Positions 1,133-40,132 of a DNA stretch of 64,000 bases are shown piece by piece. The notes below the pieces were generated by a model. It searched no databases. It saw only the letters and a program-made list of their open reading frames with translations, and was not told the origin of the DNA. Each line of letters opens with the position of its first letter. The stretch's first letter is position 1. The position numbers and the translations under genes were made by a program. Source of the stretch: Gemmatirosa kalamazoonensis (GTDB lineage Bacteria > Gemmatimonadota > Gemmatimonadetes > Gemmatimonadales > Gemmatimonadaceae); NCBI RefSeq assembly GCF_000522985.1, contig NZ_CP007130.1, positions 62,001 through 126,000 on the forward strand. Reading direction: 5' to 3'.

Positions 1133-1170
1133 GTCCACGACTGGTTGATGAACGTCGCGCCTCGCGTGAC

Positions 1171-1309: not shown

Positions 1310-1326
1310 GCCATGCCGGGCGCGTC

Positions 1327-4760: not shown

Positions 4761-4870
4761 GTTAGGCAGGGGCAGGGAGACCGGGCGAGGGACGCCGGAA
4801 ATCGGGCCCGCGGTCGAGCGGCGCGCAAGCCCGGCGCAGCGCCCGCGCAGCGCCCGCGCGGGGCACTCGC

Positions 4871-4898
4871 TTGACACCCCGCGGTCGCCGGGAATCTT
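4871..4898 (+). promoter_or_regulatory. Candidate promoter for the DUF1080/propeller operon
   Basis: TTGACA (4871-4876), a 16-base spacer and AATCTT (4893-4898) lie in the divergent gap between GH16 and the DUF1080 gene at 4963. The -10 match is weak. A very similar TTGACA-N16-GATCTT occurs at 28946 before the rhamnosidase at 29047. Confidence 0.3.
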
Positions 4899-4962
4899 GT
4901 CCCGTTGTCGCACATAGGGAAGTTCGTGAGCAGATGTGCGTTCACCCCGGTCGGTGGTGTCC

Positions 4963-8615: not shown

Positions 8616-8643
8616 CCGGCCCCCGGCCCACAGAGGAGGAGTG

Positions 8644-9525
8644 ATGAGCGAATCACGCACGAGCCGTCGGTCGTTCCTGGTGGAGCTGGCGGGCGTCGCG
8701 TTAGGCGGCGGCGCGCTCGCGGCGTGCGCGAAGCACGCGTCGGGAGGGGTGCGCCCGTCGCCGGACCGCGTCGGCATCCAGCTCTACACGGTGCGCGACC
8801 TCATGCAGCAGGACTTCGAGGGCACGCTGGAGCGCGTCGCGCAGGCCGGGTACAAGGAGATGGAGTTCGCCGGCTACTACAACCGCACGCCGGAGCAGGT
8901 GCGCGCGGTGCTCGACCGGCTCAAGCTCGTGTCGCCGAGCGCGCACATCGGCGCGCAGCTGCTGAAGGAGAACGTGCAGCGCGAGATCGCGAGCGCGAAG
9001 ACGATCGGACAGTCGTACATCACCATCCCGTCGTACGGTTTCCCGAGCAACGCCGGCGTCGACGCGTGGAAGGCGGCGGCGGCGGAGTTCAATCGCTGGG
9101 GCGCGGCGTGCCGCGACGCGGGGCTCAAGCTCGCGTACCACAACCACAACCGCGAGTTCGCGCCGATCGACGGGGCGACGTCGGGGTTCGACGTGCTCGT
9201 GCGCGAGACCGATCCCGCGCTCGTCGACTTCGAGCTCGATCTGTACTGGGCGACGTACGCGGGGCAGGACCCGATCGCGCTGTTCGGGCGCTACCCGGGC
9301 CGCTTCGCGATGTGGCACGTGAAGGACATGCGCGACCCGCAGGGCGCGAAGACGATGGCGCCTGTGGGGCTCGGGACGATCGACTTCAAGAGCATCTTCG
9401 CGCACGCGTCGCAGTCCGGGATGCGCCACTACTTCGTGGAGCACGACACCGCCGCGCAGTGGCCCGGCGGCGCGATCGCCAGCATCACCGAGAGCGCGCG
9501 CTACCTCAAGCAGCTCCTCGCATGA
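8644..9525 (+). CDS. Sugar phosphate isomerase/epimerase-like TIM barrel, Tat-exported lipoprotein
   Basis: 293 residues. A twin-arginine signal (TSRRSFLVELAG) ends in an AACAK lipobox. The barrel has the xylose-isomerase-like/AP-endonuclease-2 signatures: GIQLYTVRD, LAYHNHNREF and FELDLYWATYAGQDP with metal-ligand Glu, Asp and His residues, then MWHVKDM and FVEHD near the end. Periplasmic members of this family occur with DUF1080 and Gfo/Idh/MocA proteins in keto-sugar pathways. A strong GAGGAGGA site (8633-8640) sits 4 bases before the ATG at 8644; a GTG at 8641 is too close to it. The stop overlaps the next start. Confidence 0.88.
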   Translation: MSESRTSRRSFLVELAGVALGGGALAACAKHASGGVRPSPDRVGIQLYTVRDLMQQDFEGTLERVAQAGYKEMEFAGYYNRTPEQVRAVLDRLKLVSPSAHIGAQLLKENVQREIASAKTIGQSYITIPSYGFPSNAGVDAWKAAAAEFNRWGAACRDAGLKLAYHNHNREFAPIDGATSGFDVLVRETDPALVDFELDLYWATYAGQDPIALFGRYPGRFAMWHVKDMRDPQGAKTMAPVGLGTIDFKSIFAHASQSGMRHYFVEHDTAAQWPGGAIASITESARYLKQLLA

Positions 9526-10418
9526 GACGCGCGCTGCCGCTCCTCCTCGTCGCCCTCGCCGGCTGCGCGAGCGCCCACGGCGCCGCGCGCGCGACGACCG
9601 ACCCCGACGCGCGCGAGTGGATCCAGCTCTTCAACGGCCGCGACCTGAAGGACTGGGACATCAAGTTCGCGAAGCACGACCTCGGCGACAACTTCAACGA
9701 CACGTTCCGCGTCGAGGACGGGCTGCTGAAGGTGCGCTACGACAAGTGGACCGCGTTCAACGGCGAGTTCGGGCACATCTTCTACAAGAAGCCGTTCTCG
9801 TACTACCTCGTCGCCGCGGAGTACCGCTTCGTCGGCGACCAGGTGACCGGCGCGGGGCCGAGCCTCGCGTGGGCGAAGCGCAACAACGGCATCATGATCC
9901 ACGGCCAGAGCGCGGAGAGCATGGGGAAGGATCAGGACTTCCCGATGTCGCTCGAGGTGCAGCTGCTGGGCGGCCTGAGCGACGGCAAGCCGCGGTCGAC
10001 GGGGAACCTGTGCACGCCGGGCACGAACGTGCACTTCGGCGAGAAGCTCATCACCGCGCACTGCACGAACTCGCGCTCGAAGACGTACGACGGCGACCAG
10101 TGGGTGCGCGTGGAGGCGCTCGTGCTCGGCGACTCCGTGATCAAGCACATCGTCATGGGCGACACGGTGCTGGAGTACCGCAAGCCGGAGATGGGCGGTG
10201 GATCGGCGAACAACATGAAGCCCGGCGTGAAGATCGACGGCACGCCGATCACCGGCGGCTCGATCTCGCTGCAGGCCGAGACCGCGCCGATCGACTTCCG
10301 CAAGGTGGAGCTGCTGAACCTGGAAGGGTGTATGGACGCCAAGGCCTCGAACTACAAGCGCTACTACGTGAAGGCGGACCCCGCGGCTTGTCGCTACGGT
10401 GGCGGAGCGCGGCCATGA
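9522..10418 (+). CDS. DUF1080 / 3-keto-disaccharide hydrolase-domain lipoprotein, second copy
   Basis: 298 residues, paralogous to the protein at 4963. The lipoprotein signal is MRRALPLLLVALAGCAS. The fold opening is DAREWIQLFNGRDLKDWDIK, and the conserved IMIHGQSAESMGKDQDFPMS and NLEGCMDAKASNYKRYYV blocks match the first copy. Having two copies in one operon, each near a propeller-HEAT protein, suggests two related substrates or anomers. Start and stop both overlap their neighbours by four bases, so translation is probably coupled. Confidence 0.85.
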   Translation: MRRALPLLLVALAGCASAHGAARATTDPDAREWIQLFNGRDLKDWDIKFAKHDLGDNFNDTFRVEDGLLKVRYDKWTAFNGEFGHIFYKKPFSYYLVAAEYRFVGDQVTGAGPSLAWAKRNNGIMIHGQSAESMGKDQDFPMSLEVQLLGGLSDGKPRSTGNLCTPGTNVHFGEKLITAHCTNSRSKTYDGDQWVRVEALVLGDSVIKHIVMGDTVLEYRKPEMGGGSANNMKPGVKIDGTPITGGSISLQAETAPIDFRKVELLNLEGCMDAKASNYKRYYVKADPAACRYGGGARP

Positions 10419-10870
10419 ACGCGCGCGTCGCGCTGGTCGCGTTAGGCACCGCGCTCGCCGCGACGTCGGCGTCGGCGCAGGCCCCGTCCGACGGCAAGAA
10501 GATCTTCGGTGCGACGTGCGCCGCGTGCCACCAGGCGACGGGCGAGGGCGTGCCGGAGAAGTACCCGCCGCTCGCCGGCAGCGAGTGGGTGACCGGCGAC
10601 GAGGGGCGCCTCGTGCGCGTGATCCTGCACGGGCTCCAGGGCGACGTGGAGGTCGAGGGCGAGACGTTCAACGGCGCGATGCCGGCGTGGGGCCCGACGC
10701 TGAGCGACCCCGACATCGCCGCGGTGGCGACGTACATCCGCGCGAGCTTCGGCAACAAGGCCGCGCCGGTGAGCACGGCCACCGTCACGCAGATTCGCGC
10801 CGCCACGAAGTCGCGCGCCACGCCGTGGACGGCGCAGGAGCTCGCGCAGGTGCTCCAGGTGAAGAAGTAG
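10415..10870 (+). CDS. Small periplasmic c-type cytochrome
   Basis: 151 residues with a cleavable signal (ATSASAQA). One haem-binding CAACH motif lies at residues 35-39, and a distal Met is likely in NGAMPAWGPTLSD, as in class I cytochromes c. DPDIAAVATYIR is the usual C-terminal helix. It follows the DUF1080 gene with a four-base overlap. It is the only haem protein of this operon and so is a natural electron acceptor for the adjacent propeller proteins, whose sequences lack haem motifs (inference). Confidence 0.9.
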   Translation: MNARVALVALGTALAATSASAQAPSDGKKIFGATCAACHQATGEGVPEKYPPLAGSEWVTGDEGRLVRVILHGLQGDVEVEGETFNGAMPAWGPTLSDPDIAAVATYIRASFGNKAAPVSTATVTQIRAATKSRATPWTAQELAQVLQVKK

Positions 10871-10878
10871 GCGCCGGC

Positions 10879-11337
10879 GTGCGTCGCTGGTCGGGCCGCG
10901 CGCTGCAGGTCGTCGCGTGGCTCCTCGTGCTCTGCACGATCGTCCAGATCTTTCTCGCCGGGCTCGCCGTGTTCGTGGGGCCGCAGTGGTGGCCGCGCCA
11001 CCGCGCGTTCGTCGACGGCTTCCAGTACCTCGCGCCGCTCGCGCTCGTGCTCGCCTACCTCGCGCGCACCACGCGCGGTCCCAAGGTGATAGGCTGGGTC
11101 ATGCTCCTGCTGCTCTGGCTGCAGTACACGACGATCGAGCAGCGGCTGGTGCCCGGCCATCAGGCGTGGGCGGCACTGCATCTCGTCGGAGGCGTGCTGA
11201 TCTTCTGGCTCTCCACCGAGTTGGCCCGGCGCGCGACCGTTCGTCCGCCGTACCACGACTCCACCACGAGGGGGCCTTCATTCAACGAATCGGGAGAATT
11301 CGAGGAACCTCCGCCGGTCCCGAAGGGGGTTCCTTGA
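10879..11337 (+). CDS. Small membrane protein, DUF6220-like
   Basis: 152 residues starting at GTG 10879, 8 bases after the cytochrome stop. Four hydrophobic helices are visible, with GLAVFVGPQWWPRHRAFV and a conserved HLVGGVLIFWLS helix. This is the shape of the small four-helix family often annotated DUF6220. The role is unknown; its place after cytochrome c could mean a haem or quinone-linked function, but this is a guess. The last ~20 residues (from FNESGEFEEPP) are encoded by the left arm of the hairpin at 11281, so the original stop may have been lost. Confidence 0.7.
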   Translation: MRRWSGRALQVVAWLLVLCTIVQIFLAGLAVFVGPQWWPRHRAFVDGFQYLAPLALVLAYLARTTRGPKVIGWVMLLLLWLQYTTIEQRLVPGHQAWAALHLVGGVLIFWLSTELARRATVRPPYHDSTTRGPSFNESGEFEEPPPVPKGVP

Positions 11338-11356
11338 ATTCTCCCGATTCGTTGAA
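11281..11356. repeat. Intergenic hairpin, variant core with family 1-like flanks
   Basis: A 29-base left arm (11281-11309, starting TTCAACGAATCGGGAGAATT) pairs with 11328-11356 with a single mismatch around an 18-base loop. The bases on either side (GACTCCACCACGAGG before, AACGTGGAGCCGTGCCGG after) resemble the outer ends of copies A to D, but the stem sequence is unrelated. It overlaps the 3' end of the preceding gene and could terminate that operon. Confidence 0.85.
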
Positions 11357-11440
11357 TTGAAAACGATAGAACGTGGAGCCGTGCCGGCGCGACGGACGGG
11401 AGCGCTCGCACATCATGTCGTCCCTCATCCGGTGCCCACG

Positions 11441-14332
11441 ATGTTCATGACGTCGAGACGATTTCTCCTCGCGGCGGCCTTCTCGGCCGGCCTCGGCGCG
11501 CCCGCCCAGGCCCAGTTCGGGCAGCCGAACATGGGGACGGGCCCGAAGCTGCCCGCGAGCGGCGCGATCACGCGCGACACCGCGTACGAGCGCAAGGTGC
11601 TCGAGAACATCACGGCGCCAGCCGGCGCGACGATGACGCTGTTCGCCGGACCGCCGATCGCGATGTACCCGACCGCCGTCGCGCCGTCGCCCGACGGCTC
11701 GGTGTACGTCGGCGTCGACCTCAACCTCGCGCAGGGGGCGGTGAAGGGACGCGGCCGCGTCATGCGCCTGGTCGACACCGACGGCGACGGGCGCGCCGAC
11801 CGGTACACGACGTTCCTCGACGTCGACAGCCCGCGCGGCATCGTCGCCGACGGCAAGACCGTGTACGTGATGCATCCGCCGAACCTCACGGCGTACCGCG
11901 ACACGAACGGCGACGGCATCGCCGACGACTCGACCGACATCGTGAAGGGGATCGGCTTCGGGCTCGACGTGCGCAGCTCGGACCACTCGACGAACAACAT
12001 CACGCTGGGACCCGACGGCTGGATCTACGTCGCCGTCGGCGACTACGGCTACCTGAACGCGACGGGGAAGGACGGCAACACGATCACGCGCCACGGCGGG
12101 AGCCTCGTGCGCGTGCGCCCCGACGGTACGGGGCTCGAGATCGTCACCGTCGGCACGCGCAACATCTACGACGTCGGCATCGATCCGTTCGGGCACGCGT
12201 TCACGCGCGACAACACGAACGACGGCGGCGGGTGGGACACGCGCTTCCACTACCTGGCGCCTAACGCGAACATGGGCTACCCGTCGCTCTTCCGGTACTT
12301 CCGCGAGGAGCACATGCCGTCCATCGCCGACTACGGCGCGGGGTCCGGCACCGCGGGGCTGTGGATCCAGGATCCGGGCGTGCCGGATCAGGTGAACAAC
12401 TCGCTGTTCACCGGCGACTGGACGACGAACCGCGTCTACCACCACGTGCTGACCCCGAAGGGCGCCAGCTTCGCGATCGAGCAGCACGACTACATGACCG
12501 TGCCGCACGCGATCGACATCGCGATGGACGACCGGTCGCACCTGTACGTGGGCAGTCTCATCGGCGGGGTGTTCAACTACGCCGGCGATACGGTCGGCGC
12601 GATCGTGCGCGTCTCGTTCCCCGGAAAGACGCCGTCGAAGCCGCCGACCTGGGCGTCCGCCAGCGTGGCGCAGCTCGTCGACGCCATCGTCTCCGACAAC
12701 GCGGTGCACCGCATCTGGGCCCAGCAGGAGCTCGCGCGCCGCGGTGCGTCGGCGGCGACCGTCACGCGGCTCGGCCAGCTCGCGGGCGACCGCGCGCGCC
12801 CGGCGTACGCACGTGCCTCGGCGATCTTCGCGCTGAAGCGCCTCGCCGGCGAGCGCGCGAATCCGACGCTCGTGCGGCTCGCCGACGACCCGGTGGTGCG
12901 CGAGGTCGCGCTGCGCGCGCTCACCGACGACCGGACCCACGTCGCGAACGTGCCGGTGAACCTGTTCGTGCAGGCGCTGCAGGACACGAGCTACTTCGTC
13001 CGCGTGCAGGGGCTCAACGGCCTCGTGCGACTCGGCGCGCGCGACCGCGCGCAGGCGATCGTGCCGCTGCTCACGAGCCCCGACTCGGCGCTCGCACACC
13101 TCGCCGTGCAGTCGCTCGCGGCGCTCGGCGCGCGCGACGTGGCGCTCGCCGCGCTCACCGCCGCGGGCAGCTCGCCGGCGCTGCGCACGCGCGCGCGCAT
13201 GGTGCTGCAGCAGCTGCACGACAGCGCCACGGTCGGCGCGCTGCTCGGCGCGTTAGGCAGCTCGTCGAGCGCGGACGTGAAGCACGAGGCGCTGCTCGCG
13301 CTCGCGCGGCTGTACAACACCGAGGGGCCGTGGACCGGCGACTGGTGGGGGACGCACCCGTCCACGCTCGGGCCGTACTTCGCGCCGGCGACGTGGGAGC
13401 AGAGCGCGCGCATCCGTCCCGCGCTGCGCGACGCGCTGCTCGCCGCGCAGGGCGACGACTTCCGCGCGCTCGCGCAGACGTTCGTGCGCAACCGCGTGCT
13501 CCCGGCCGGCGCCGAGGCGCTGCTCGCCGCGGTGAGCACGCCCGGCGACCCGTCGCGCGCGCGGCTCGTCGACGCGCTCGCCGGCGCGTCGCAGGTCGGC
13601 GACGCCGCGGTGGCGCTGCTGCCGGAGCTCGACCGGCGCGGCGCCGCGTTCCACACCGCGGTGGCCGAGCTGCTCGCCGGCGAGACGACGTTCGGCGCGC
13701 CGACGCTGCCGCTCGCCCGCGCCGCGGCGCTCGACACGACGCTGAGCCCGGAGGTGCGCGGGCGGCTGCTCACCGCGTTCAGTCAGCTCTCGGGCGACGC
13801 CGGACGTGACGCCGCGGTCGCCGTGTTCGCGCTCGTGACGCCGCGCACGGCTGCGCCCCGTCCGCCGTCGCCGCCGGCCGGAACGACCGGCGACCCGGGC
13901 GCCGGCGTGCCCGGCGTGGGCGTGGTAAAGAGCGGCGCCCCCGCGCCCGGCGCGGTGCCTGCCGCCGCGGCGGCGGCGGCCACGCCGACCGCGGCGCCTA
14001 ACGCGCCGGCGGGCGCGCCGAGCGCGGTGGAGCAGGCATGGCGCCGCTACGTCGGGTCGTTCGACCGGTTCCAGCAGCTCGACTACTTCGCCGCGCTCAC
14101 GAAGAGCGCCGACGAGGCGCAGCGCACGCTCGCCTACGCGGTGCTGCTGCAGGCCGCGCGCGCGTCGTCGCGCTCGCCGATGCTCGCGCCGGTGCGCGAG
14201 AAGGTCGCGCCGGTGATCGACGCCGCGTGGGGTGACCCGACCGCGCGCACGAGCCTCGTCGACGCCATCCACATCATGCACGTCGAGAGCCTGTACGCGG
14301 ACAAGCTCAAGGTGACGAAGGAGCCGGATTGA
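11441..14332 (+). CDS. Exported beta-propeller protein with HEAT repeats, paralogue of the 5838 gene
   Basis: About 963 residues from ATG 11441; ATG 11447 is equally possible. The signal peptide is SRRFLLAAAFSAGLGAPAQAQ. The propeller region keeps the same landmarks as the 5838 protein (LFAGPPIAMYPT, DTDGDGRADRYTTF, VMHPPNLTAYRD, WIYVAVGDYGY, RDNTNDGGGWDTR). The HEAT-like half also aligns, including GDWWGTHPSTLGPYF and HVESLYADKL. It differs in a longer Pro/Ala-rich linker near residue 830. No haem motif is present. It is separated from the operon by the hairpin at 11281. It probably has the same class of substrate as its paralogue. Confidence 0.8.
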   Translation: MFMTSRRFLLAAAFSAGLGAPAQAQFGQPNMGTGPKLPASGAITRDTAYERKVLENITAPAGATMTLFAGPPIAMYPTAVAPSPDGSVYVGVDLNLAQGAVKGRGRVMRLVDTDGDGRADRYTTFLDVDSPRGIVADGKTVYVMHPPNLTAYRDTNGDGIADDSTDIVKGIGFGLDVRSSDHSTNNITLGPDGWIYVAVGDYGYLNATGKDGNTITRHGGSLVRVRPDGTGLEIVTVGTRNIYDVGIDPFGHAFTRDNTNDGGGWDTRFHYLAPNANMGYPSLFRYFREEHMPSIADYGAGSGTAGLWIQDPGVPDQVNNSLFTGDWTTNRVYHHVLTPKGASFAIEQHDYMTVPHAIDIAMDDRSHLYVGSLIGGVFNYAGDTVGAIVRVSFPGKTPSKPPTWASASVAQLVDAIVSDNAVHRIWAQQELARRGASAATVTRLGQLAGDRARPAYARASAIFALKRLAGERANPTLVRLADDPVVREVALRALTDDRTHVANVPVNLFVQALQDTSYFVRVQGLNGLVRLGARDRAQAIVPLLTSPDSALAHLAVQSLAALGARDVALAALTAAGSSPALRTRARMVLQQLHDSATVGALLGALGSSSSADVKHEALLALARLYNTEGPWTGDWWGTHPSTLGPYFAPATWEQSARIRPALRDALLAAQGDDFRALAQTFVRNRVLPAGAEALLAAVSTPGDPSRARLVDALAGASQVGDAAVALLPELDRRGAAFHTAVAELLAGETTFGAPTLPLARAAALDTTLSPEVRGRLLTAFSQLSGDAGRDAAVAVFALVTPRTAAPRPPSPPAGTTGDPGAGVPGVGVVKSGAPAPGAVPAAAAAAATPTAAPNAPAGAPSAVEQAWRRYVGSFDRFQQLDYFAALTKSADEAQRTLAYAVLLQAARASSRSPMLAPVREKVAPVIDAAWGDPTARTSLVDAIHIMHVESLYADKLKVTKEPD

Positions 14333-14341
14333 GCGCTCGAC

Positions 14342-14375
14342 CGACAGGAAGCCTGCCCGTTCGTTCATCCTGTCG
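14342..14375. terminator. Stem-loop between convergent genes
   Basis: CGACAGG (14342-14348) pairs with CCTGTCG (14369-14375). It sits in the 32-base gap between the plus-strand propeller gene and the minus-strand eboE and runs into the eboE stop. It has no T-tract; a bidirectional terminator is plausible. Confidence 0.4.
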
Positions 14376-15615
14376 AACGGGGTGACGGGCCTCCGCCTAA
14401 CGGCTCCAGTCTGGACGCGGCCCACCCGAGCTCGCGCGTCACGGCGGTCACGATGTCCTCCCGGCGGTATTCCTCCGGGAGGACGTCCCACGTGTAGGTC
14501 TCGACCTCGAAGTGCGCGCAGTCCGACCGCTGCCGCACCGCGCGCAACAGCTCCGCGACGTACGCCTGCGTCCCCTCGAACCGACCGTAGCGGTCGCGGA
14601 ACAGCGGCACGTGGAAGTGGATGCGCCACTCGCGCGGGCCCGCCTCGTCGGTGCCGCGCGCGGCGGCGAGCGCCTGCGGCAGGTCGAGGTGCCGCACGAG
14701 CGTGCCGTCGGCGCGCCGCTCGACGACCTGGTGCAGGTACACGTCGTCGGCGAACGCATCGAGCGCGTCGAGCACCGCGGCGTCGTCCGTGCCGCCGGGC
14801 AGCGCGACGCGGAGCCCCGCGCTCACCTGCACCTTCGCGACGCGGACCCCCGCGCGGTCGAGCGCGTCGAGCGCCGCCGCCGGATCCTCGAACTCCACCG
14901 CCATGTGGCAGGCGTCGAGGCACACGCCGAGGTGCTCGCGGATCGCGCGCGCGGCGTCCGCGGGCGCGAGCCCGGTCGCGCGCGCGACCGTGACGGCCGC
15001 TTCCGGCGTGAAGAGGTGGCGCGCGAAGAAGTCGACCGCCTGCGCCGTCGTCTCGAGGAAGCAGCACGGCTCCGGCTCGAGCGCGAGCGCGACCCGACGG
15101 CCGGTGGTCACGCGCAGGAGCACGAGGTGCGCGACGTGCGCGAGCATCGCGCGCGCCATGCGCTCGGCGTCGGCGTCGCCGGCCACGCGGCGCTCGAACG
15201 CGCCCGGCACGGTGCTGATCGTTCCCTCCATCCCCTCGGGCAGCAGCGCGGCGAGGAGGTCGGCCAGCCGGTCGGTGTACGCGAGCCGCTCGTCGTCGAG
15301 CCAGTCGGGTAGGTAGACGGTCTCCTTCACCGGCCGGCCGTGGAACGTCCCGTACGGGAAGCCGTTGATCGTGTAGACGAAGAGGTCGTGCGCGCGCAGC
15401 AGCCCGCGTAGCTCGGCCATCGCCTCCGGCTCCGACAACGCGTGGGCCGCCGCGCCCGACAGGCGCAGGCCGACGCCGAACGGTCGTCCGGGCGCGAACC
15501 GCTCGCGGACCGGCACGACGTAGCGCGTCAGGTTCTCGCGCACCTCGGGCCACGTCTCGCCGGCGTGGATGTTGGTGCAGTAGGTGAGGTGGGGTCGGGC
15601 GGGCGGAGCGGTCAC
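14365..15615 (-). CDS. eboE: EboE, metabolite-traffic TIM-barrel protein
   Basis: 416 residues, starting with GTG at 15615 (VTAPPARPHLTYCTNIHAGE). LTYCTNIHAGETW, YTINGFPYGTFHG and EGTISTVPGAFERR are typical of EboE. ALALEPEPCCFLETT, VCLDACHMAVEFE and IHFHVPLF carry likely metal ligands of a xylose-isomerase-like barrel. Ebo proteins are encoded in a conserved cluster found in cyanobacteria, algae and diverse bacteria; in Nostoc the cluster is needed to deliver scytonemin precursors to the periplasm. EboE's reaction is not established. It diverges from the rest of the cluster across a gap of about 110 bases. Confidence 0.88.
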   Translation of the reverse strand: MTAPPARPHLTYCTNIHAGETWPEVRENLTRYVVPVRERFAPGRPFGVGLRLSGAAAHALSEPEAMAELRGLLRAHDLFVYTINGFPYGTFHGRPVKETVYLPDWLDDERLAYTDRLADLLAALLPEGMEGTISTVPGAFERRVAGDADAERMARAMLAHVAHLVLLRVTTGRRVALALEPEPCCFLETTAQAVDFFARHLFTPEAAVTVARATGLAPADAARAIREHLGVCLDACHMAVEFEDPAAALDALDRAGVRVAKVQVSAGLRVALPGGTDDAAVLDALDAFADDVYLHQVVERRADGTLVRHLDLPQALAAARGTDEAGPREWRIHFHVPLFRDRYGRFEGTQAYVAELLRAVRQRSDCAHFEVETYTWDVLPEEYRREDIVTAVTRELGWAASRLEPLGGGPSPRSTG

Positions 15616-15726
15616 GGTCGGAAGCGGCGGGCTCGTCGTGATGGGAGGGCGTCGTGCCGCACACTAGATTGCAGGGTGCGCCCCCGCCAGGCGCGAGGGC
15701 GTCCCCACCCATCAGGAGACCGTGCC

Positions 15727-16053
15727 GTGCAGCCGGCAGTGATCGCTTCGCCGAAGACGGGCCGCGAGCTCGTCGACGAGTACTTCATCGAGAACCGGAC
15801 GCGGCTGCTCGAGATCGCGGCGTTCCTCGACCGCCTCGACCGCGTGGACGATACGCTGGCCCAGCGCGACTTCCGCGCGCGCGCGTTCCGCGAGGCGTTG
15901 GGCGTGCTCACCGCGGACGCGGCGACGGGCGACGCGACGCGGGTGGAACGCATCCAGATGATCTTCAGCGACCCCACGACGGAGCCGCTCGAGCGTCTCG
16001 ACCAGAAGAGCGCGCGCGGCGCCTACGACCGCTGGCAGATGGGGGTGGCGTGA
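15727..16053 (+). CDS. Small helical protein at the head of the ebo operon
   Basis: 108 residues from GTG 15727, with AGGAG at 15714-15718 at good spacing. It is predicted all-helical and charged: [44 protein letters not shown], and a conserved-looking end [18 protein letters not shown]. It has no signal or membrane segment. It occupies the place of EboA, but EboA proteins are usually about twice as long and I cannot show homology, so no symbol is given. Its stop overlaps the EboB start (TGATG), which implies translational coupling. It may be a partner or scaffold of the TatD-like enzyme. Confidence 0.75.
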
Positions 16054-16886
16054 TGCGCTACATCGACCTGCACGCGCACATGGTCTCGCGCACGACCGAC
16101 GACTACGTGCAGATGGCGCTGACCGGCTGCGTGGCCGTCACCGAGCCCGCGTTCTGGCCGGGGTGGGACCGCAGCTCGGCCGACGGCTTCGAGGACTACT
16201 TCCGTCAGCTCACGGACTTCGAGCCGAAGCGCGCCGCACAGTACGGGATCCGGCACTTCACGTGGCTCTGCCTGAACCCGAAGGAGGGCGAGGACCGGCA
16301 GCTCGCGCGCGAGGTGCTGCGGCGCATCCCGCGGTTCCTCGACGCGCCTAACGTGCTCGGCATCGGCGAGATCGGCCTCAATCGCGTGACGCGCAACGAG
16401 CTCGCGACGTTCCGCGACCACGTCGAGCTGGCGCTCGAGCACGATCAGCTGATCCACATCCACACGCCGCACCTCGAGGACAAGTACAAGGGCACGAAGA
16501 CGATCGTCGACGCGCTGCTGACGTACGACCGCATCGATCCGGCGCGCGTGATGGTGGACCACGCCGAGGAGCACACGCTGCGGATGATCCTCGACAACGG
16601 CTTCTGGACCGGCCTCACGCTCTACCCGCAGACGAAGGTGAGCCCGGAGCGCGCGATCGACATGCTCGAGCGGTACGGGCCGGAGCGCGTCTGCGTCGCG
16701 TCGGCGTGCGACTGGGGGCCGAGCCTCCCGGACGCGGTGCCGCACTTCGCGATGGCGATGCGCCGCCGCGGACACGACGAGGCGTTGATCGAGCGCGTGG
16801 TGTTCGAGAATCCGGCGGCGTTCCTCGGCCAGTCGCCGAAGTTCCGCGTGCCGCGCGCGGAGGGGGCGGCCGTGGCGGCGGTCTGA
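16053..16886 (+). CDS. eboB: EboB, TatD-like metal-dependent hydrolase
   Basis: 277 residues. It opens with [18 protein letters not shown], the HxH metal motif of the amidohydrolase/TatD superfamily. [11 protein letters not shown] carries the conserved Glu, [12 protein letters not shown] and MVDHAEEHT the later histidines, and [10 protein letters not shown] the final Asp. The sequence around [12 protein letters not shown] is typical of the EboB branch rather than of DNA-repair TatD. The substrate is unknown, presumably a small metabolite handled by the ebo pathway. It lies between the small protein and the phosphodiesterase with almost no spacing. Confidence 0.85.
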
Positions 16887-16892
16887 CGCGCC

Positions 16893-18308
16893 ATGCGACC
16901 CACGGTCGTGCTGCTCGTCGTCGGCCTGACGAGCGATCTGTTAGGCGACGACACGCCGAACCTCCGCGCGTTCGCCGCGCGCGGCGGGCTGCGGCCGCTG
17001 CGCACCATCGTGCCCGCGGTCACGTGCTCGGTGCACGCGACGTTCACGACGGGGCTCCTGCCGCGCGACCACGGCGCGGTCGCGAACGGCTGGTACTTCC
17101 GCGACACGGCGGAGGTGCGGCTGTGGGTGCAGTCGAACCACCTCGTGTCCGGCGAGAAGGTGTGGGATGCGGCGCGGCGCGTCGACCCGAGCTTCACCTG
17201 CGCGCAGCTCTTCTGGTGGTACAACATGTACAGCGGCGCGGACTACACCGTCACGCCGCGCCCGATGTATCCCGCGGACGGGCGCAAGATTCCCGACGCG
17301 TACACGCAGCCGATGGCGCTGCGCGACGAGCTGAACGCGCAGTTGGGCACGTTCCCGCTGTTCAACTACTGGGGGCCGCGCGCCGACATCACGACGTCGC
17401 GGTGGATCGCGGACTGCGCGAAGCACATCCACGACACGCGGCGTCCCACGCTGTCGCTCGTGTATCTGCCGCACCTCGACTACAACCTGCAGCGGCTGGG
17501 CCCCGACGATCCGCGCATCGGCGCCGACCTGCGCGCGATCGACGCCATCTGCGGCGAGATGATCGAGTGGGCGGAGCGCGACGGCGCGCGCGTCGTCGTG
17601 CTCTCGGAGTACGGGATCACGCCGGTGACGGGCGCGGTGCACGTGAACCGTGCGCTCCGCGAGGCGGGGCTCATCCAGGTCCGCTCGGAGCTCGGGCGCG
17701 ACATGCTCGATGCGGGGGCCTCCGAGGCGTTCGCCGTGGCCGACCACCAGATCGCCCACGTCTACGTCAGGCGTCCGGAGCGCGTGCCCGAGGTGCGTGC
17801 CCTGCTCGAGCGGCTGGACGGCGTCGAGACGGTGCTCGACGAGGAAGGGAAGCGCGCGCACGGCCTCGACCACCCGCGCTCGGGCGAGCTGGTCGCGATC
17901 TCGAGCGCCGACCGGTGGTTCACGTACTACTTCTGGCTCGACGACGACCGCGCACCCGACTATGCGCGTACGGTGGACATCCACCGCAAGCCTGGCTACG
18001 ACCCCGTGGAGCTGTTCGTCGATCCGGCCATCCGCTTCCCGACGGCGAAGGTCGCGGGGATCCTGGCGCGCCGGAAGCTGCTGAACTCGCGCGCGCTGCT
18101 CGACATCACGCCGCTCGACGCGTCGCTCGTGAAGGGCTCGCACGGCCGCCCCACCGACGACCCGGCGCGAGGCCCGGTGTTCATCTCCGGCGATCCGTCG
18201 CTCGCGCCCGACGGCGACGTGCGCGCCACGGACGTGAAGGAGCTGCTGCTGCGGCAGGTGTTCGCGGTGCGCCCCGACGCGGCGCGTGGGCTGGCACATG
18301 CCCGCTGA
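16893..18308 (+). CDS. eboF: EboF, alkaline-phosphatase-superfamily phosphodiesterase/nucleotide pyrophosphatase
   Basis: 471 residues, starting 6 bases after eboB. The N-terminus MRPTVVLLVVGLTSDLLG leads to the nucleophile region VPAVTCSVHATFTTG, and GLLPRDHGAVANGW follows as in type I phosphodiesterases. Later metal sites are SLVYLPHLDYNLQR, VVLSEYGITP and VADHQIAHVYV. The usual D at VVVLSDHG is an SEYG here, as in other EboF-like proteins I recall; this should be confirmed. There is no signal peptide, so it is cytoplasmic. It probably removes a phosphate or nucleotidyl group from a prenylated or cyclitol intermediate (inference). Confidence 0.82.
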   Translation: MRPTVVLLVVGLTSDLLGDDTPNLRAFAARGGLRPLRTIVPAVTCSVHATFTTGLLPRDHGAVANGWYFRDTAEVRLWVQSNHLVSGEKVWDAARRVDPSFTCAQLFWWYNMYSGADYTVTPRPMYPADGRKIPDAYTQPMALRDELNAQLGTFPLFNYWGPRADITTSRWIADCAKHIHDTRRPTLSLVYLPHLDYNLQRLGPDDPRIGADLRAIDAICGEMIEWAERDGARVVVLSEYGITPVTGAVHVNRALREAGLIQVRSELGRDMLDAGASEAFAVADHQIAHVYVRRPERVPEVRALLERLDGVETVLDEEGKRAHGLDHPRSGELVAISSADRWFTYYFWLDDDRAPDYARTVDIHRKPGYDPVELFVDPAIRFPTAKVAGILARRKLLNSRALLDITPLDASLVKGSHGRPTDDPARGPVFISGDPSLAPDGDVRATDVKELLLRQVFAVRPDAARGLAHAR

Positions 18309-19266
18309 CGCGATCGACGCCGGCGGGGCGCGCGAGGCGCCGCGCACCCGCCCGCGCGTTGGGCGCGTTAGGCACGCACCCGACGCGTCCGCGCCGCACC
18401 CGCTGCTGCCGTACTTCCGGCTGGTGCGCGCGCCGGCGGTCTTCTCCGCGCTCGGCGACCCGCTCGCCGGGCTGCTGATCGGCGCGGGACGGCTGCCCGC
18501 GCGCCGCGCGGCACGGCTGTCGTCGGCCGCGGCGCTGCTCTATCTCGCGGGGATGGCGCTGAACGATCTCGCCGACCGCGCCGAGGACGCGCGCGAGCGG
18601 CCGGAGCGGCCGATCCCGTCGGGGGCGGTGTCGCCGCACGCCGCGGCGCTGGTGGGCACGGCGCTGCTGATGGCCGGCGCCGTCGTGGCGCGCGACGCGG
18701 GCGCCCGCCGCACCGGCCCGGCGCTCGCCGCGCTCGTCGCGGCGTACGACTTCGACCTGAAGCACTCCGCCGCGTTAGGCCCGACGGCGATGGGCGCCTG
18801 CCGGTCGCTGTCGCTGCTCATGGGCGTGGAGGCGGCACGGCGCGTGGACATGCGGTCGGGCGCGCGGCCCCGCACTCGGCGCGGGCGCGAGGCGGCGGTG
18901 CTGTTGGGCGCGTACGTCGCCGGGCTCACGCTCGTCGCGCGTGGCGAGACCGGCGCGGCGCGGCGCAGGGAGCTGCGGCTCGGCGCCACGCTCGCGGCGA
19001 CCGCGCTGCTCGCGTCGGCGTGGCGCGGCGGAGCGCGATCGGTGCCGTGGGCGGCCGCGGTCGCGGCGCTCGCCGGGCCGGCGGTCGCGCGCGCGCTGCG
19101 TGAACCGGCGCCCGCGACCGTCGGGCCCGCGGTCGGCGCGCTGATTCGCGCGATCCCAGCGCTCGACGGCGCGCTCGCCGCGGCCGATGCGCCCGGGCGC
19201 GCGCTCCTGCTCCTGCCGCTGCTCGGTCTCGTGCGCTGGGGCCGTGCGCTCATTCCCATCACGTGA
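18298..19266 (+). CDS. eboC: EboC, UbiA-family prenyltransferase
   Basis: 322 residues with about eight or nine hydrophobic helices. The first Asp-rich motif is NDLADRAEDARERPERPIPS, the prenyl-diphosphate/Mg site of UbiA enzymes, and the second is AAYDFDLKHSAALGP. It should transfer a prenyl group to an acceptor at the membrane. I used the ATG at 18298; a GTG at 18286 is also in frame. It overlaps eboF by 11 bases. In known ebo clusters EboC is the only integral membrane protein and is thought to anchor the pathway. Confidence 0.85.
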   Translation: MPADAIDAGGAREAPRTRPRVGRVRHAPDASAPHPLLPYFRLVRAPAVFSALGDPLAGLLIGAGRLPARRAARLSSAAALLYLAGMALNDLADRAEDARERPERPIPSGAVSPHAAALVGTALLMAGAVVARDAGARRTGPALAALVAAYDFDLKHSAALGPTAMGACRSLSLLMGVEAARRVDMRSGARPRTRRGREAAVLLGAYVAGLTLVARGETGAARRRELRLGATLAATALLASAWRGGARSVPWAAAVAALAGPAVARALREPAPATVGPAVGALIRAIPALDGALAAADAPGRALLLLPLLGLVRWGRALIPIT

Positions 19267-19302
19267 GAGACGTTGCGCGCCGCGTGGTGCGCCACCCATG
19301 AC

Positions 19303-19415
19303 TCCACGTACGCGTCTTCGTGGGACTGAAGAAGGACTGAAGAAGGACACTTGAAAGGTTCCCTCTTCAGTCCTCCTTCAGTCCTTCTTCAGTCCTGTAC
19401 ACACACGTACGTGGA
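19303..19415. repeat. Intergenic hairpin element, family 1 copy B
   Basis: TCCACGTACG at 19303-19312 and CGTACGTGGA at 19406-19415 form the outer ends. Inside, GGACTGAAGAAGGACTGAAG units are answered by their reverse complement. It separates eboC from the inositol-3-phosphate synthase gene and could end or attenuate the ebo transcript. Confidence 0.85.
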
Positions 19416-19445
19416 GTCACGAACGACACATCGGAGGAGTCGTAC

Positions 19446-20645
19446 TTGAAGATCTGGATCGTTGGAGCCCGCGGCGCGATCGCCACGACGCTGACCGTGG
19501 GGCTGCTCGCGGCGCGCCGTGGTCTGCTGCCGCTCGAGGCGCTGCTCACCGAGACGTCCCCGTTCGGCGCGCTCGACCTGCCGTCGCTCGACGATCTGGA
19601 GATCGGCGGCTGCGACCTCCGACCGGGGACGCTGGCCGAGAGCGTGCGCGCGACGCTCGACGGCGTGGGCAGCTTCTCCGCGCCGGTGATCGACGCCGTG
19701 ATGCCCGCGCTCGACGAGATGCGCGTCACGCGTGGCGTCCTGCGCGGCGGCGGCCCCGCGGTCGAGGCGCTCGCCGGCGAGGACCGCGAGGCCGGCGCCG
19801 CGGGCACGGCGCGCGACGCCGTCAGGCGCATCGGCGACGACCTGCGCGCGTTCGCGGGCGGCACGCCCACCGTGGTGGTGAACGTGGCGTCGACCGAGCC
19901 GCCGCCGCATCCGTCGCTCGCGGCGTGGGACGCGGAGGCGCTCGAGCGGGCGCTCGACGCCGACGACCCGCGCATCCCTGCGTCGTGCCTGTACGCGTAC
20001 GCGGCGATCACGGCCGGGCACCCGCACGTGAACTTCACGCCGTCGGGCGGCGCGGCGCTCCCCGCGCTCGCGGAGCTGGCCCGCGCGGCGGGCGTGCCGC
20101 TCGCGGGGCGCGACGGCAAGACCGGCGAGACGCTGCTCAAGACCGCGCTCGCGCCGATGTTTCCGATCCGCGCGCTCACCGTCGAGGGATGGTACGGCAC
20201 GAACATCCTCGGCAACACCGACGGGCTGGTGCTCGCCGATCCGGACAACAAGGCGAGCAAGATCACGTCGAAGAAGGGCGTCCTCGAGGGCTGCCTCGGC
20301 TACGCGCCGGCGGGCGACGTCCGCATCGACTACTTCCCGCCGCTCGCCGACCACAAGGTGGCGTGGAACTTCATCCAGTTCCGCGGCTGGGGCGGGCACC
20401 GCATGCGGCTCCAGTTCACGTGGGAGGGGACCGATTCGGTGCTCGCCGCGCCGCTCGTGCTCGACGTGGCGCGGCTCGTCATGCTCGCGCACCGGCGCGG
20501 CGAGGCGGGGCCCGTCGGCGCGCTCGGGCTCTTCTTCAAGACGCCGGAGGGGAGCGACGAGATGAACCTGCACCGGCAGTACGACGCGCTGCTCCGCTGG
20601 GCGGCGGCGCCGGTGCCTAACGGAATCGCCGCGCCGGACGTCTGA
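19446..20645 (+). CDS. Inositol-3-phosphate synthase (myo-inositol-1-phosphate synthase family)
   Basis: 399 residues. The start is TTG 19446, with TCGGAGGAG ideally placed upstream. KIWIVGARGAIATTLTVG is the NAD-binding Rossmann loop. GKTGETLLKTALAPMF, TNILGNTDGLVL and SKITSKKGVLEG are the core MIPS motifs, and HKVAWNFIQFRGWGG follows. The enzyme converts glucose-6-phosphate to inositol-3-phosphate with tightly bound NAD. It lies directly after the ebo genes, where one would expect EboD, a dehydroquinate-synthase-like sugar phosphate cyclase. It is therefore a candidate functional replacement that supplies a cyclitol phosphate (inference). Confidence 0.9.
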   Translation: MKIWIVGARGAIATTLTVGLLAARRGLLPLEALLTETSPFGALDLPSLDDLEIGGCDLRPGTLAESVRATLDGVGSFSAPVIDAVMPALDEMRVTRGVLRGGGPAVEALAGEDREAGAAGTARDAVRRIGDDLRAFAGGTPTVVVNVASTEPPPHPSLAAWDAEALERALDADDPRIPASCLYAYAAITAGHPHVNFTPSGGAALPALAELARAAGVPLAGRDGKTGETLLKTALAPMFPIRALTVEGWYGTNILGNTDGLVLADPDNKASKITSKKGVLEGCLGYAPAGDVRIDYFPPLADHKVAWNFIQFRGWGGHRMRLQFTWEGTDSVLAAPLVLDVARLVMLAHRRGEAGPVGALGLFFKTPEGSDEMNLHRQYDALLRWAAAPVPNGIAAPDV

Positions 20646-21490
20646 TGTCGGCGCGCCCGTACCGGCTCGGCTACAACACGAACGGCTTCGCGCACCACCG
20701 GCTCGAGGACGCGCTCGCGATCATCGCGGAGCTGGGCTACCGGGCCGTCGCGCTGACGCCCGACGCGAACCACCTGCCGCCCGACCGCACCTCGGCGGCC
20801 GATCTGCGCGCGGTCCGCTCGCTGCTCGAGCGCCTCGACCTCGCGGTGGTGGTGGAGACCGGCGCGCGCTACGTGCTCGACCCGCGCCGCAAGCACCGCC
20901 CCACGCTGCTCGAGCGCGACCCCGCCGACCGCGCGCGGCGTCTCGACTTCCTCGTGCGCTGCGCCGAGATCGCGTCGGAGCTCGGCGGCGACTGCGTGTC
21001 GTTCTGGTCGGGCATCCCCGCGCCCGGGGTGTCGCGTGACGAGGCGTGGAGCTGGCTGGTGGACGGCGTGGCCGAGGTGTGCCGGCGCGTCGAGCCGTTG
21101 GGCGTGCGCCCCGCGTTCGAGCCCGAGCCCGGGATGCTCGCCGAGTCGCTCGCCGACTGGGCAGCGCTGCGCGACGCCGTGTCGTCGCCCGCTCTCGGCC
21201 TCGTGCTCGACGTGGGCCACGTGCCGTGCACCGAGTCGATCACCGCCGGCGACGCGATCCGTCGGCACGGCGCGGAGCTGCGCACGCTCCACCTCGACGA
21301 CTCGCGCGGCGGCGTGCACGAGCACCTGCAGATCGGGGAAGGGGAGCTGGACTGGCCCGACATCGCGCGCGCCCTGCGCGAGGTCGGCTTCACCGGCGTC
21401 GCCGCGTTCGAGCTCTCTCGCCACTCGCACGCGGCGCCCGACGCGGCGCGTGTCGCGATCGAGCGCTTTCTGGCCGCGGATCGTCATTGA
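20645..21490 (+). CDS. Sugar phosphate isomerase/epimerase (TIM barrel)
   Basis: 281 residues, no signal peptide. RLGYNTNGFAHHRLEDALAI and YRAVALTPDANHL begin the barrel, FEPEPGMLAESL and LVLDVGHVPC carry the acidic metal ligands, and LHLDDSRGGVHEHLQIGEGE matches the late xylose-isomerase-like motif. The start overlaps the synthase stop (TGATG), so the two are coupled. A role in epimerising or isomerising an inositol- or keto-sugar-derived intermediate is plausible but not shown. Confidence 0.88.
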   Translation: MSARPYRLGYNTNGFAHHRLEDALAIIAELGYRAVALTPDANHLPPDRTSAADLRAVRSLLERLDLAVVVETGARYVLDPRRKHRPTLLERDPADRARRLDFLVRCAEIASELGGDCVSFWSGIPAPGVSRDEAWSWLVDGVAEVCRRVEPLGVRPAFEPEPGMLAESLADWAALRDAVSSPALGLVLDVGHVPCTESITAGDAIRRHGAELRTLHLDDSRGGVHEHLQIGEGELDWPDIARALREVGFTGVAAFELSRHSHAAPDAARVAIERFLAADRH

Positions 21491-21649
21491 ACCGCAGAGG
21501 GCCGCAGAGGGCCGCAGAGAACGACCAACTGCTTTCTCACCACAGAGGACACAGAGGACACGGAGGAAACCAACAAGAGGTGGCTCTCCTCCGTGTCCTC
21601 CGTGTCCTCTGTGGTTCAAATGAAAGGCTCTGCGGCCCTCTGCGGTTCG
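21489..21649. repeat. Nested double hairpin of CCGCAGAGG and CACAGAGGA tandem units
   Basis: The outer arm (21489-21519, GAACCGCAGAGGGCCGCAGAG) pairs with 21628-21649. The inner arm (about 21538-21568, CACAGAGGACACAGAGG units) pairs with about 21587-21615. The two stems are built of different short tandem units. It lies between convergent genes and ends 2 bases before the stop of the minus-strand gene. Such CACAGAGGACACAGAG hairpins are known from many soil bacterial genomes; their role is unknown. Confidence 0.85.
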
Positions 21650-21651
21650 AA

Positions 21652-22653
21652 TCAATCCCTCGCGAACGCCGCGTCGAACGCCACGTTGCTCGGCGCGAAG
21701 TCCAGTGACTTGATCTTCGCGCACGCCTCGCGCGCCCCGAACTCGCGGTCCATCGCGCCGTCCTCCCACTCCACCGAGAGCGGCCCCTGGTACCCGATCT
21801 TGTTCAGCGCGCGGATGATCTCCTCGAACCTGATCTTGCCGCGGCCGATCGAGCGGAAGTCCCAGTAGCGGTCGCCGTGCCCGAAGTCGAGGTGGCCGCC
21901 GAACACGCCCGACGGCTTCGGCACGTCGGACCACCACACGTCCTTCATGTGCGCGTGGTAGATGCGGTCGGCGAACCGCTCGATGAACAGCACGTAGTCC
22001 ACGCCCTGGTAGCCGAAGTGGCTCGGGTCGTAGTTGAAGCCGAAGGCCTCGCGGCGTCCCACCGCGTCGAGCGCGCGCTCGGCCGACGACACGTCGAACG
22101 CGATCTCGGTCGGATGCACCTCGAGCGCGAAGCGTACGCCCACCTCGTCGAACGTGTCGAGGATCGGGTTCCAGCGGTCGGCGAAGTCGCGGTAGCCGGC
22201 GTCGATCATCCCCGGCGCGTTCGGCGGGAAGCTGTAGAGCAGCGGCCAGACCGCGGAGCCGGTGAACCCGGGCACGACCTTCACGCCTAACGCCTTCGCC
22301 GCGCGCGCCGTGTTCTGCATCTCCTCCGCGGCTCGCCGCTGCACGCCGTCCGGCTTGCCGTCGCCCCACACCCGCGGCGGGAGGATGCTCTTGTGCCGCT
22401 CGTCGATGCGGTCGCACACCGCCTGGCCCACGAGGTGGTTGCTGATCGCGTATACCGCGAGGCCGTGCTTCTCGAGGATGTCGCGGCGCGACTGGACGTA
22501 GCGGTCGTCGGCGAGCGCCTTGTCGACCTCGAAGTGGTCGCCCCAGCAGGCGAGCTCCAGGCCGTCGTAGCCGAACGACTTCGCCTTCGCGGCGACCGTT
22601 TCGAGCGGCAGGTCCGCCCACTGCCCCGTGAACAACGTGACGGGTCTCGGCAT
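21652..22653 (-). CDS. Xylose-isomerase-like TIM-barrel sugar isomerase/epimerase
   Basis: 333 residues, cytoplasmic. [14 protein letters not shown] opens the barrel and [20 protein letters not shown] carries the first metal Glu region. [29 protein letters not shown] and [12 protein letters not shown] hold the conserved Glu, Asp and His residues, and PLSVEWEDG ends the site. This family accompanies Gfo/Idh/MocA dehydrogenases in inositol and keto-sugar pathways. Two such dehydrogenases lie directly upstream in the same direction, separated only by a hairpin, so they probably act on one substrate. Confidence 0.88.
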
Positions 22654-22677
22654 CAGTGTTGAGCGTAGGAGTGATTG

Positions 22678-22744
22678 CTGCGTGGCTGCGTGGCTGCGTG
22701 AGCGCGTAGCTGTTACGCAGCCACGCAGCCACGCAGCCACGCAG
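22678..22744. repeat. Hairpin of GCGTGGCT tandem units
   Basis: CTGCGTGGCTGCGTGGCTGC at 22678-22697 is answered by GCAGCCACGCAGCCACGCAG within 22715-22744. It fills most of the gap between two minus-strand genes and ends just before the stop codon of the upstream dehydrogenase. Confidence 0.85.
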
Positions 22745-22745
22745 T

Positions 22746-23909
<1,164 letters not shown>

Positions 23910-23926
23910 GAGGATGTGGTTGGGCG

Positions 23927-25084
23927 TCAGGTGGGCGGCGCGTAGCGCGCGTCGACCCAGTCTCGCTGCCGGCCGCTGTCGATCGCGCGGTGGATGAAGT
24001 GCACGCCGCGCGCGCCGTCCTGCACGGTCGGGAAGTCGGTGTCGAACTCGCCCGGCGCCTCGCCGGCGACGCGCGCCGCGATCGTGCGCGCGACGTTGCG
24101 GTAGATGTTCGCGAACGCCTCGATGAACCCCTCGGGGTGCCCGAACGGGATGCGCGTGTTGTGGCGCGCGATCGGCGCGAGGTAGTCGTTGCCGCGCTTG
24201 TAGACCTCCGACGCGCGGTCCGCGTAGAGCAGGTGCAGGTAGTTCGGGTCCTCCTGCCGCCAGTCGAGCCCCGCCTCGGTGCCGAACACGCGCAGCCGCA
24301 GCCCGTTCTCCTCGCCGACCGAGATCTGCGACGAGTAGATGACGCCGCGCGCACCGCCGTCGTAGTGCACGAGCAGGTTCGCGTCGTCCTCCAGCTCGTA
24401 GCCCTTCCCGAACGACGTGAGGTCGGCGTTGAGCGCGGTGAGCTCGAGCCCCGTCACGTAGCGCGCGAGGTGCCACGCGTGCACGCCGATGTCGCCCACC
24501 GCCGACGAGATGCCGGCGACGCTGGGGTCGAGGCGCCACATGTTGATCCCTGCCGCCTTCGCGAGCCACCCCTGCGGGTACTCCGCGACGACCTTGCGCA
24601 GCGTGCCGAGCTTCCCCTGGCGCACGAGCTCGCGCGCCTGCTTCACCATCGGGTAGCCCGTGTAGTTGTGCGTGAGGCCGAACACGGTGTCGTACCGCTT
24701 CACGAGCCGGCACAGCTCCTCGGCGTCCTCCACGGTCGTCGTCATCGGCTTGTCGCACACGACGTGGAAGCCGGCCTCGATGAACGCCTTCGCGATCGCG
24801 AAGTGCGACACGTTCGGCGTCACGATCGTCACGAAGTCGATGCGGTCGCCCTCGGCGCGCGCGCGCTCGCGCTCGACCATCTCCTCCCACGACGCGTAGA
24901 CGCGCGCCGGATCGAGGTGCAGCGCGTCACCCTGCTGCCGCGACTTCTCCGCCGACGACGAGAACGCGCCGGCGACGAGCTCGATCTCGCCGTCGAGCGC
25001 CGCGGCGGCCCGGTGCACTCCGCCGATGAACGCCCCCGGCCCGCCGCCGACCATCCCGTACCGCACCTTCCTGTTCAGTGGCAT
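23927..25084 (-). CDS. Gfo/Idh/MocA family oxidoreductase
   Basis: 385 residues. [20 protein letters not shown] is the nucleotide-binding start, [19 protein letters not shown] and [13 protein letters not shown] carry the catalytic Lys, and [19 protein letters not shown] the His. The opening GGGPGAFIG and the GITSVG-like region resemble the branch acting on myo-inositol or related 3-keto sugars, but specificity cannot be read from sequence. ATG 25084 was preferred over an upstream in-frame start. It is 17 bases from the second dehydrogenase, so it is probably co-transcribed. Confidence 0.9.
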
Positions 25085-25121
25085 CGGTTCGTTAGGCTGT
25101 CGTTGATGGTTGCTCGGCAAT

Positions 25122-31840: not shown

Positions 31841-31973
31841 TCCACGTACGAGTGTTGGTTGGACTGAAGAAGGACTGAAGAGGGACTGAAGAAGGAGAAC
31901 ACCAACAATGTTGTTGGTCCTTCTTCAGTCCCCCTTCAGTCCTTCTTCAGTCCCCCAGAAACACGTACGTGGG
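31841..31973. repeat. Intergenic hairpin element, family 1 copy C
   Basis: TCCACGTACG at 31841 and CGTACGTGGG at 31964-31973 are the ends. The arms are GGACTGAAGAAGGACTGAAG-type units and their reverse complement, joined by an inner ACCAACA/TGTTGGT stem. It lies between convergent genes. Confidence 0.85.
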
Positions 31974-40117: not shown

Positions 40118-40132
40118 GGCGCCGGAGCGTGC

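Follow-up and report, generated by a model that had tools for sequence, protein, structure and literature searches.

Many bacterial phyla, and the plastids of some algae, possess the ebo gene cluster. We describe here a cluster of this type, at positions 14365-21490 of a 64,000-nucleotide stretch of Gemmatirosa kalamazoonensis DNA (contig NZ_CP007130.1, positions 62,001 to 126,000; this whole stretch is termed the window below), in which a myo-inositol-phosphate synthase (MIPS) and a xylose-isomerase-like TIM-barrel protein (TIM2) stand in the place of EboD. It is very probable that in this class of cluster MIPS and TIM2 are a real replacement of EboD: the source genome lacks EboD, its cluster contains a MIPS distinct from the housekeeping form, and EboD and MIPS exclude each other across the ebo loci surveyed.

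EboD has been proposed to form a cyclitol from sedoheptulose 7-phosphate, and EboC to prenylate some compound (PMC5133447). In Nostoc the ebo genes are genetically required for export of the scytonemin monomer, which ebo mutants keep in the cytoplasm, and a lipid carrier with a cyclitol head group was proposed to explain this phenotype (PMC6282210). These earlier proposals of a cyclitol-containing lipid were derived from EboD alone (PMC5133447, PMC6282210).

Absence of EboD and presence of a distinct MIPS

EboD was found neither in the window nor anywhere else in the 7.48 Mb genome, which is assembled in four contigs. A search with PF01761 returned a single locus of the dehydroquinate synthase family, and this sole homologue is AroB, ordinary by its translation, which scored 157 bits against a profile built from seven EboD proteins, compared with 560-602 bits for EboD of known ebo genomes. 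The proposal that an EboD is hidden elsewhere in the genome was rejected, as AroB alone was found. A first-pass annotation of the window had reported that the cluster contains no dehydroquinate-synthase-like gene and that MIPS appears to replace EboD; the former is confirmed, and the latter is strongly supported by the lack of EboD elsewhere in the genome. Because EboD is absent, the locus is referred to as a variant and not as a standard member of the ebo family.

The gene in EboD's place (19446..20645, plus strand) encodes an archaeal-type myo-inositol-1-phosphate synthase containing PF07994 and PF01658. A GGAGG sequence precedes the TTG start (19446), which agrees with the starts of homologues. 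The best solved relative is the MIPS of Archaeoglobus fulgidus (1u1i, E=5.5e-88), the match being full-length. For this enzyme mutagenesis is described, in the citation of Neelon et al. given in PMC5614600, as marking Asn255, Lys274, Lys306 and Lys367 as important, while the aligned mutant entries in the PDB are altered at Lys278 and Lys367. Seven positions (D225, N255, D261, K274, K278, K306 and K367 in A. fulgidus numbering) are kept in the window MIPS, and also in all those ebo MIPS whose sequences extend over these positions. It is likely, judging from homology and this conservation, that the enzyme converts glucose 6-phosphate to inositol phosphate. The earlier assignment of a TTG-started inositol-3-phosphate synthase is confirmed by the two Pfam domains. 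The window MIPS lies in an operon-like block with a UbiA-family gene and TIM2; the A. fulgidus gene is not known to be linked to ebo genes.

TIM2 (20645..21490, plus strand; PF01261, E=3.6e-42), the ATG of which overlaps the MIPS stop codon (TGATG), is a xylose-isomerase-like TIM-barrel sugar isomerase/epimerase. Among solved structures its nearest relatives, at a weak level of similarity (E 7e-11), are D-psicose/D-tagatose 3-epimerases, and its profile matches include 5-keto-gluconate epimerase and inosose dehydratase. The conserved Glu, Asp and His of metal-ligand kind are intact. A sugar isomerase following MIPS on the same strand had been noted in the first-pass annotation, correctly, but the gene lies outside the interval (14365-20645) that had been assigned to the cluster.

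It could be argued that the cluster MIPS is a relocated housekeeping copy. This was rejected, as a canonical MIPS of 447 aa is also encoded on another contig (C2), in the form present in nearly all of the 150 relatives searched. The window-type enzyme occurs in only two of these 150 genomes, the source genome and G071 (77% identical). In a MIPS tree the ebo enzymes group with the A. fulgidus and haloarchaeal proteins on one side, and the canonical MIPS of the relatives fall on the other. In the G071 cluster (L038) EboE is split into two reading frames at about 6245-7420, reflecting either a pseudogene or a sequencing error, and the other cluster genes are apparently intact.

Distribution of EboD and MIPS among ebo loci

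Profiles for nine proteins, built from annotated loci, were used to classify every locus, and those that contained at least three of the core proteins EboB, UbiA, EboE and EboF were counted. Loci were drawn from the 80 genome-contig loci with the closest similarity to the EboE of the window, a source biased towards such sequences, and from plasmids. Samples not chosen by MIPS comprised all EboE-positive genomes among 395 Gemmatimonadota and 296 Actinomycetota, the EboE-positive members of 299 genomes from the order of an acetobacterial metagenome-assembled genome (MAG), and, from 392 Planctomycetota genomes, 40 of the regions positive for EboE. Haloarchaea were sampled through plasmids only, selected by MIPS. 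Several of the counts rest on draft genomes.

Of the 111 loci that passed this threshold, 79 had EboD and no MIPS, 25 had MIPS and TIM2 and no EboD, seven had neither and none had both. The exclusion of EboD by MIPS gives a Fisher p of ~7e-19 when the loci are taken as independent, which they are not entirely, relatedness being ignored. TIM2, moreover, was present in all 25 MIPS-type loci and in none of 68 EboD-type loci. Among Actinomycetota, which were sampled by EboE, MIPS occurred in 13 of 14 intact operons and EboD in none, while in Gemmatimonadota all three operons, found in three of the 395 genomes, were MIPS-type without EboD, this being the sole operon type there. The exclusion extends to whole genomes. 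Those with MIPS-type clusters contained no EboD, the best match reaching at most 194 bits (the level of AroB) against 560-602, and no MIPS of any kind was detected in 34 of 36 genomes with EboD-type clusters; the same held for 20 of the 21 genomes of a second batch. Two further EboD-type genomes from an earlier batch do have MIPS at canonical level. No MIPS was found in any cyanobacterial genome searched.

When the window MIPS was compared with plasmids by tblastn, matches were found in Streptomyces and haloarchaea. The Streptomyces operons have the conserved order MIPS-UbiA (SCO3242-type)-TIM2-EboA-EboB (TatD)-EboE-EboF, without EboD; their MIPS is ~46% and their TIM2 47-53% identical to the window proteins. 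The haloarchaeal plasmids have TatD-TIM-UbiA-TIM plus MIPS-EboF, again without EboD, and one haloarchaeal MIPS of the window type lies outside any ebo setting. Clusters found through EboE that have EboD (annotated as '3-dehydroquinate synthase') and no MIPS came from Salipiger, Ketogulonicigenium, Azospirillum, Deinococcus, Mycetohabitans, Aureibacter and Roseivivax. The view that MIPS is a chance neighbour was rejected, as MIPS and TIM2 occur together at 25 loci in three lineages. The first-pass annotation had suggested a survey of linked MIPS against EboD as a check on its reading, and the association found in three lineages, always without EboD, bears out the replacement. It had overlooked the constant partnership of TIM2 with MIPS, the second canonical MIPS on another contig, and EboG (15727-16053), which is described below.

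The surroundings of three actinobacterial loci were noted. At L148, the second cluster of genome G544, TIM2 is kept and a flavin adenine dinucleotide (FAD) amine-oxidase-like gene occupies the usual MIPS slot; a complete cluster of the MIPS type (L149) is also present in that genome. The MIPS-type operon on a plasmid of Streptomyces sp. AMCC400023 (L165) lies beside genes for an FAD monooxygenase, an amidase, and glutamine-synthetase-like and adenylosuccinate-lyase-like proteins, possibly a natural-product cluster, while that on a plasmid of Streptomyces sp. NBC_00019 (L042) adjoins a ScyD/ScyE-family gene and a multicopper oxidase gene.

A mosaic ebo cluster

In the window EboE lies on the minus strand and is divergent from EboG-EboB-EboF-UbiA/EboC-MIPS-TIM2 on the plus strand. 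A single block had been described previously, which stands, without mention that EboE is on the opposite strand. EboE (14365..15615, minus strand, GTG start) is a TIM-barrel 'metabolite traffic protein' that matches NF035939 with E=4.7e-138 and 460 bits (cut-off 250), and is 44-50% identical to EboE of proteobacteria and Deinococcus and 39% identical to that of Streptomyces. EboG (15727..16053, plus strand), a small protein that substitutes for EboA in one class of ebo operon, displays 38-42% identity to the small protein encoded between EboD and EboB in Deinococcus, and has no meaningful match among the families of Pfam and NCBIfam. Its stop codon overlaps the ATG (TGATG) of EboB (16053..16886, plus strand; PF01026), a TatD-family metal-dependent hydrolase that is 71-75% identical to Deinococcus EboB. 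EboF (16893..18308, plus strand; PF01663, E=1.5e-62) belongs to the type I phosphodiesterase/alkaline-phosphatase superfamily and is 58-65% identical to EboF from proteobacterial and Deinococcus clusters of the EboD type. The recognition of EboE, EboB and EboF in the first-pass annotation is upheld by these scores and identities.

The fourth gene recognized there, EboC, is less clear-cut. The protein in the EboC position (18286..19266, plus strand, start uncertain) is a UbiA-superfamily prenyltransferase (PF01040) of EboC/SCO3242-like kind, with an NDxxDxxxD motif at residues 93-101, and its position within the cluster is conserved. The protein scores only 136 bits against the EboC model NF035940 (cut-off 250), its second-best match, and 172 bits against the SCO3242 family NF045897 (cut-off 260), for which a Streptomyces reference reaches 347 bits. 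It is thus under both curated cut-offs, as are, for the EboC model, the EboC-position proteins of several undoubted EboD-type clusters.

The genes of the cluster have different affinities. In the EboB tree the window protein forms one clade (100/100) with those of Deinococcus and Herpetosiphon, genera that use EboD and EboG, and the window EboF and EboE are nearer to EboD-type proteins than to those of Streptomyces. The window UbiA, however, falls outside the Deinococcus/Herpetosiphon UbiAs, in a group with 99% support that contains actinobacterial, haloarchaeal and EboABCDEF-type enzymes. By these sequence affinities the cluster is a mosaic of an EboG-type core with MIPS, TIM2 and a UbiA of other affinity. 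In the EboB tree the MIPS label requires five changes, at least four of which are forced by well-supported branches. Because the label changes repeatedly, the exchange of EboD and MIPS probably occurred more than once, and the objection that the pattern reflects taxonomy only is therefore weakened. On balance we favour the view that MIPS, TIM2 and the matching UbiA act as an exchangeable module, which would here have been joined to the EboG-type core of EboD-using relatives.

The eboG variant of the ebo operon has been described (PMC5133447), and that of Deinococcus and Herpetosiphon shares the EboG-EboB-EboE-UbiA-EboF set with the window, which differs in having MIPS and TIM2 for EboD and a UbiA of different lineage. 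The Streptomyces ebo-like cluster with a SCO3242-family prenyltransferase (SCO3242/SCO3243 in S. coelicolor) shares MIPS, UbiA, TIM2, EboB, EboE and EboF, and the lack of EboD, but has EboA rather than EboG, a single-strand arrangement and another gene order, and the window UbiA is only a distant relative of SCO3242. In the Nostoc punctiforme ebo and Pseudomonas fluorescens EDB clusters EboB, EboC, EboE and EboF are homologous to those of the window, but EboD and EboA are used. No description of a MIPS-type ebo cluster was found in the open-access literature (subscription papers were outside the search, and prior notice is possible), and its parts are annotated singly in public records. The only mention of SCO3242 and SCO3243, as putative transferase and myo-inositol phosphate synthase, includes them in the CDA cluster (PMC3610822).

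A REP-like palindromic element (19299..19419, without assigned strand), which has a 50-nt inverted repeat, separates UbiA from MIPS. The palindrome, made up of GGACTGAAGAAGGACTGAAG units, is also found at 1203-1288, 31861-31953 and 40091-40121, with 13 matches in the window against none expected. A second palindromic region, with CCACAGAGGACACAGAGG and CCGCAGAGGGCCGCAGAG arms, lies at 21489-21648, just 3' of TIM2. The flanks of the cluster (1-14332 and 21655-25120) contain sugar-oxidation genes, encoding 3-keto-disaccharide hydrolases, DUF7133/HEAT proteins, and xylose-isomerase-like and Gfo/Idh/MocA proteins. The Gfo/Idh genes could in principle use inositol, yet they are outside the conserved gene set.

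Proposed function of the replacement, and EboD-less loci

The most economical inference, and the best reading of these data, is that inositol phosphate replaces the cyclitol of EboD as the ring building block. We consider it reasonably probable that the locus is an ebo cluster in which the cyclitol step is performed by MIPS and TIM2 instead of EboD, within the pathway that follows. In such a pathway MIPS would convert glucose 6-phosphate to inositol phosphate, the sole step with strong homology behind it, including the intact catalytic residues. TIM2, possibly with EboE and EboB, may then remodel the product, while EboF may handle its phosphate, for example by dephosphorylation. By analogy with the published ebo model, the UbiA/EboC-type membrane enzyme would add a prenyl chain, generating a cyclitol-headed lipid that helps to carry a metabolite across the membrane. 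The first-pass interpretation, which had invoked prenylation by EboC and trimming by EboF, is as a whole partly supported, and these two steps remain proposals.

The exchange of EboD for an unrelated cyclitol-forming enzyme fits the published lipid model and is hard to explain otherwise. Indeed, the presence of such an enzyme in the EboD slot, together with strict exclusion in the loci surveyed and the signs of module exchange, provides independent support for the ring sugar being the key building block. That the product is specifically an inositol-headed prenyl carrier lipid is put forward tentatively. Equally speculative is the broader proposal that the MIPS-ebo clusters found in Gemmatimonadota, Actinomycetota and haloarchaea direct the synthesis of a new class of prenylated inositol(-phosphate) carrier lipids, with the ring module having been exchanged for EboD independently at least twice. 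If this is true, such lipids would serve membrane transport of metabolites in Bacteria and Archaea alike. The question is now tractable, as inositol is easily labelled, the MIPS substrate is known and Streptomyces hosts are genetically amenable.

It should be emphasized that several observations weigh against the pathway set out above. The exchange is not chemically one-for-one, because MIPS yields a phosphorylated C6 inositol and the cyclitol predicted for EboD is an unphosphorylated C7 compound, and EboF, being equally present in EboD clusters, is not tied to the phosphorylated product of MIPS. Co-transcription of UbiA and MIPS is not assured, because the REP-like element separates them. An EboC homologue, furthermore, farnesylates an aromatic acid, 8-hydroxyquinoline-2-carboxylic acid, in vitro (PMC9235831).

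The haloarchaeal clusters, which have no recognisable EboE, EboA or EboG, also weigh against this pathway. They favour, as do the sub-threshold scores of the window UbiA in both the EboC and SCO3242 families and the natural-product neighbourhoods of some Streptomyces copies, an alternative in which enzymes homologous to ebo proteins constitute a distinct prenyl-inositol pathway, with another end product (a lipid or natural-product scaffold) and no ebo transport role. We regard this as unlikely, as homologues of EboE, EboA or EboG, EboB and EboF are retained as a set, the window EboB is 71-75% identical to EboB of EboD-type clusters, and one Streptomyces copy has genes for a ScyD/ScyE-family protein and a multicopper oxidase as neighbours, recalling the scytonemin setting. 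The MIPS family also includes members with other products, a 'five-membered-cyclitol-phosphate synthase' (6k96) being among the structure matches. This, together with the largely unaltered remainder of the cluster, might suggest that a MIPS homologue of changed chemistry makes the cyclitol of EboD, or an isomer, from sedoheptulose 7-phosphate, with the downstream steps unchanged. Such a change is the least probable of the alternatives, given that all the tested catalytic residues are conserved, that the nearest enzyme of solved structure is a genuine MIPS and that TIM2 is added in MIPS-type clusters only, which suggests extra processing.

Finally, MIPS is a common enzyme, and it could merely travel with the ebo genes while making inositol phosphate for other needs (phosphatidylinositol, mycothiol or an osmolyte), the ebo system running without a cyclitol. 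A linked cyclitol maker may be dispensable, because EboD and MIPS are both missing from seven operons that retain three or more core genes and L148 keeps TIM2 without MIPS. The genome that contains L148, however, has a second, complete cluster, the window genome encodes a housekeeping MIPS besides, and the linkage recurs in Gemmatimonadota, Actinomycetota and haloarchaea, always with EboD absent. Such a role for MIPS is improbable.

Loci without EboD and without a linked MIPS were found in other lineages. Planctomycetes are said to lack eboD (PMC5133447). Their candidacy as MIPS users was rejected for the 40 regions sampled, where EboD is present in 10 of 11 real operons. One planctomycete EboG-type cluster (L191) has EboB, EboE, UbiA and EboF, with both EboD and MIPS missing within 20 kb. 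Of the 392 Planctomycetota genomes, 282 contain EboE-like genes, and in 26 of the 40 regions they are solitary; because EboE mostly stands alone there, part of NF035939 may have a different job in this phylum.

Two alphaproteobacterial MAGs (L062 and L080) have EboD-less ebo operons and an unlinked MIPS, which is absent from 16 EboD-type alphaproteobacteria (Fisher p 0.0065); this is counted as suggestive only, because these MAGs are close sister lineages whose MIPS falls with the canonical enzymes in the tree. At L143 (10040-18655) of G398, an alphaproteobacterium with an EboD-less ebo operon, an unlinked MIPS of the canonical side lies near genes for a YcaO protein, a relative of TIM2 (282 bits) and a PIG-L deacetylase.

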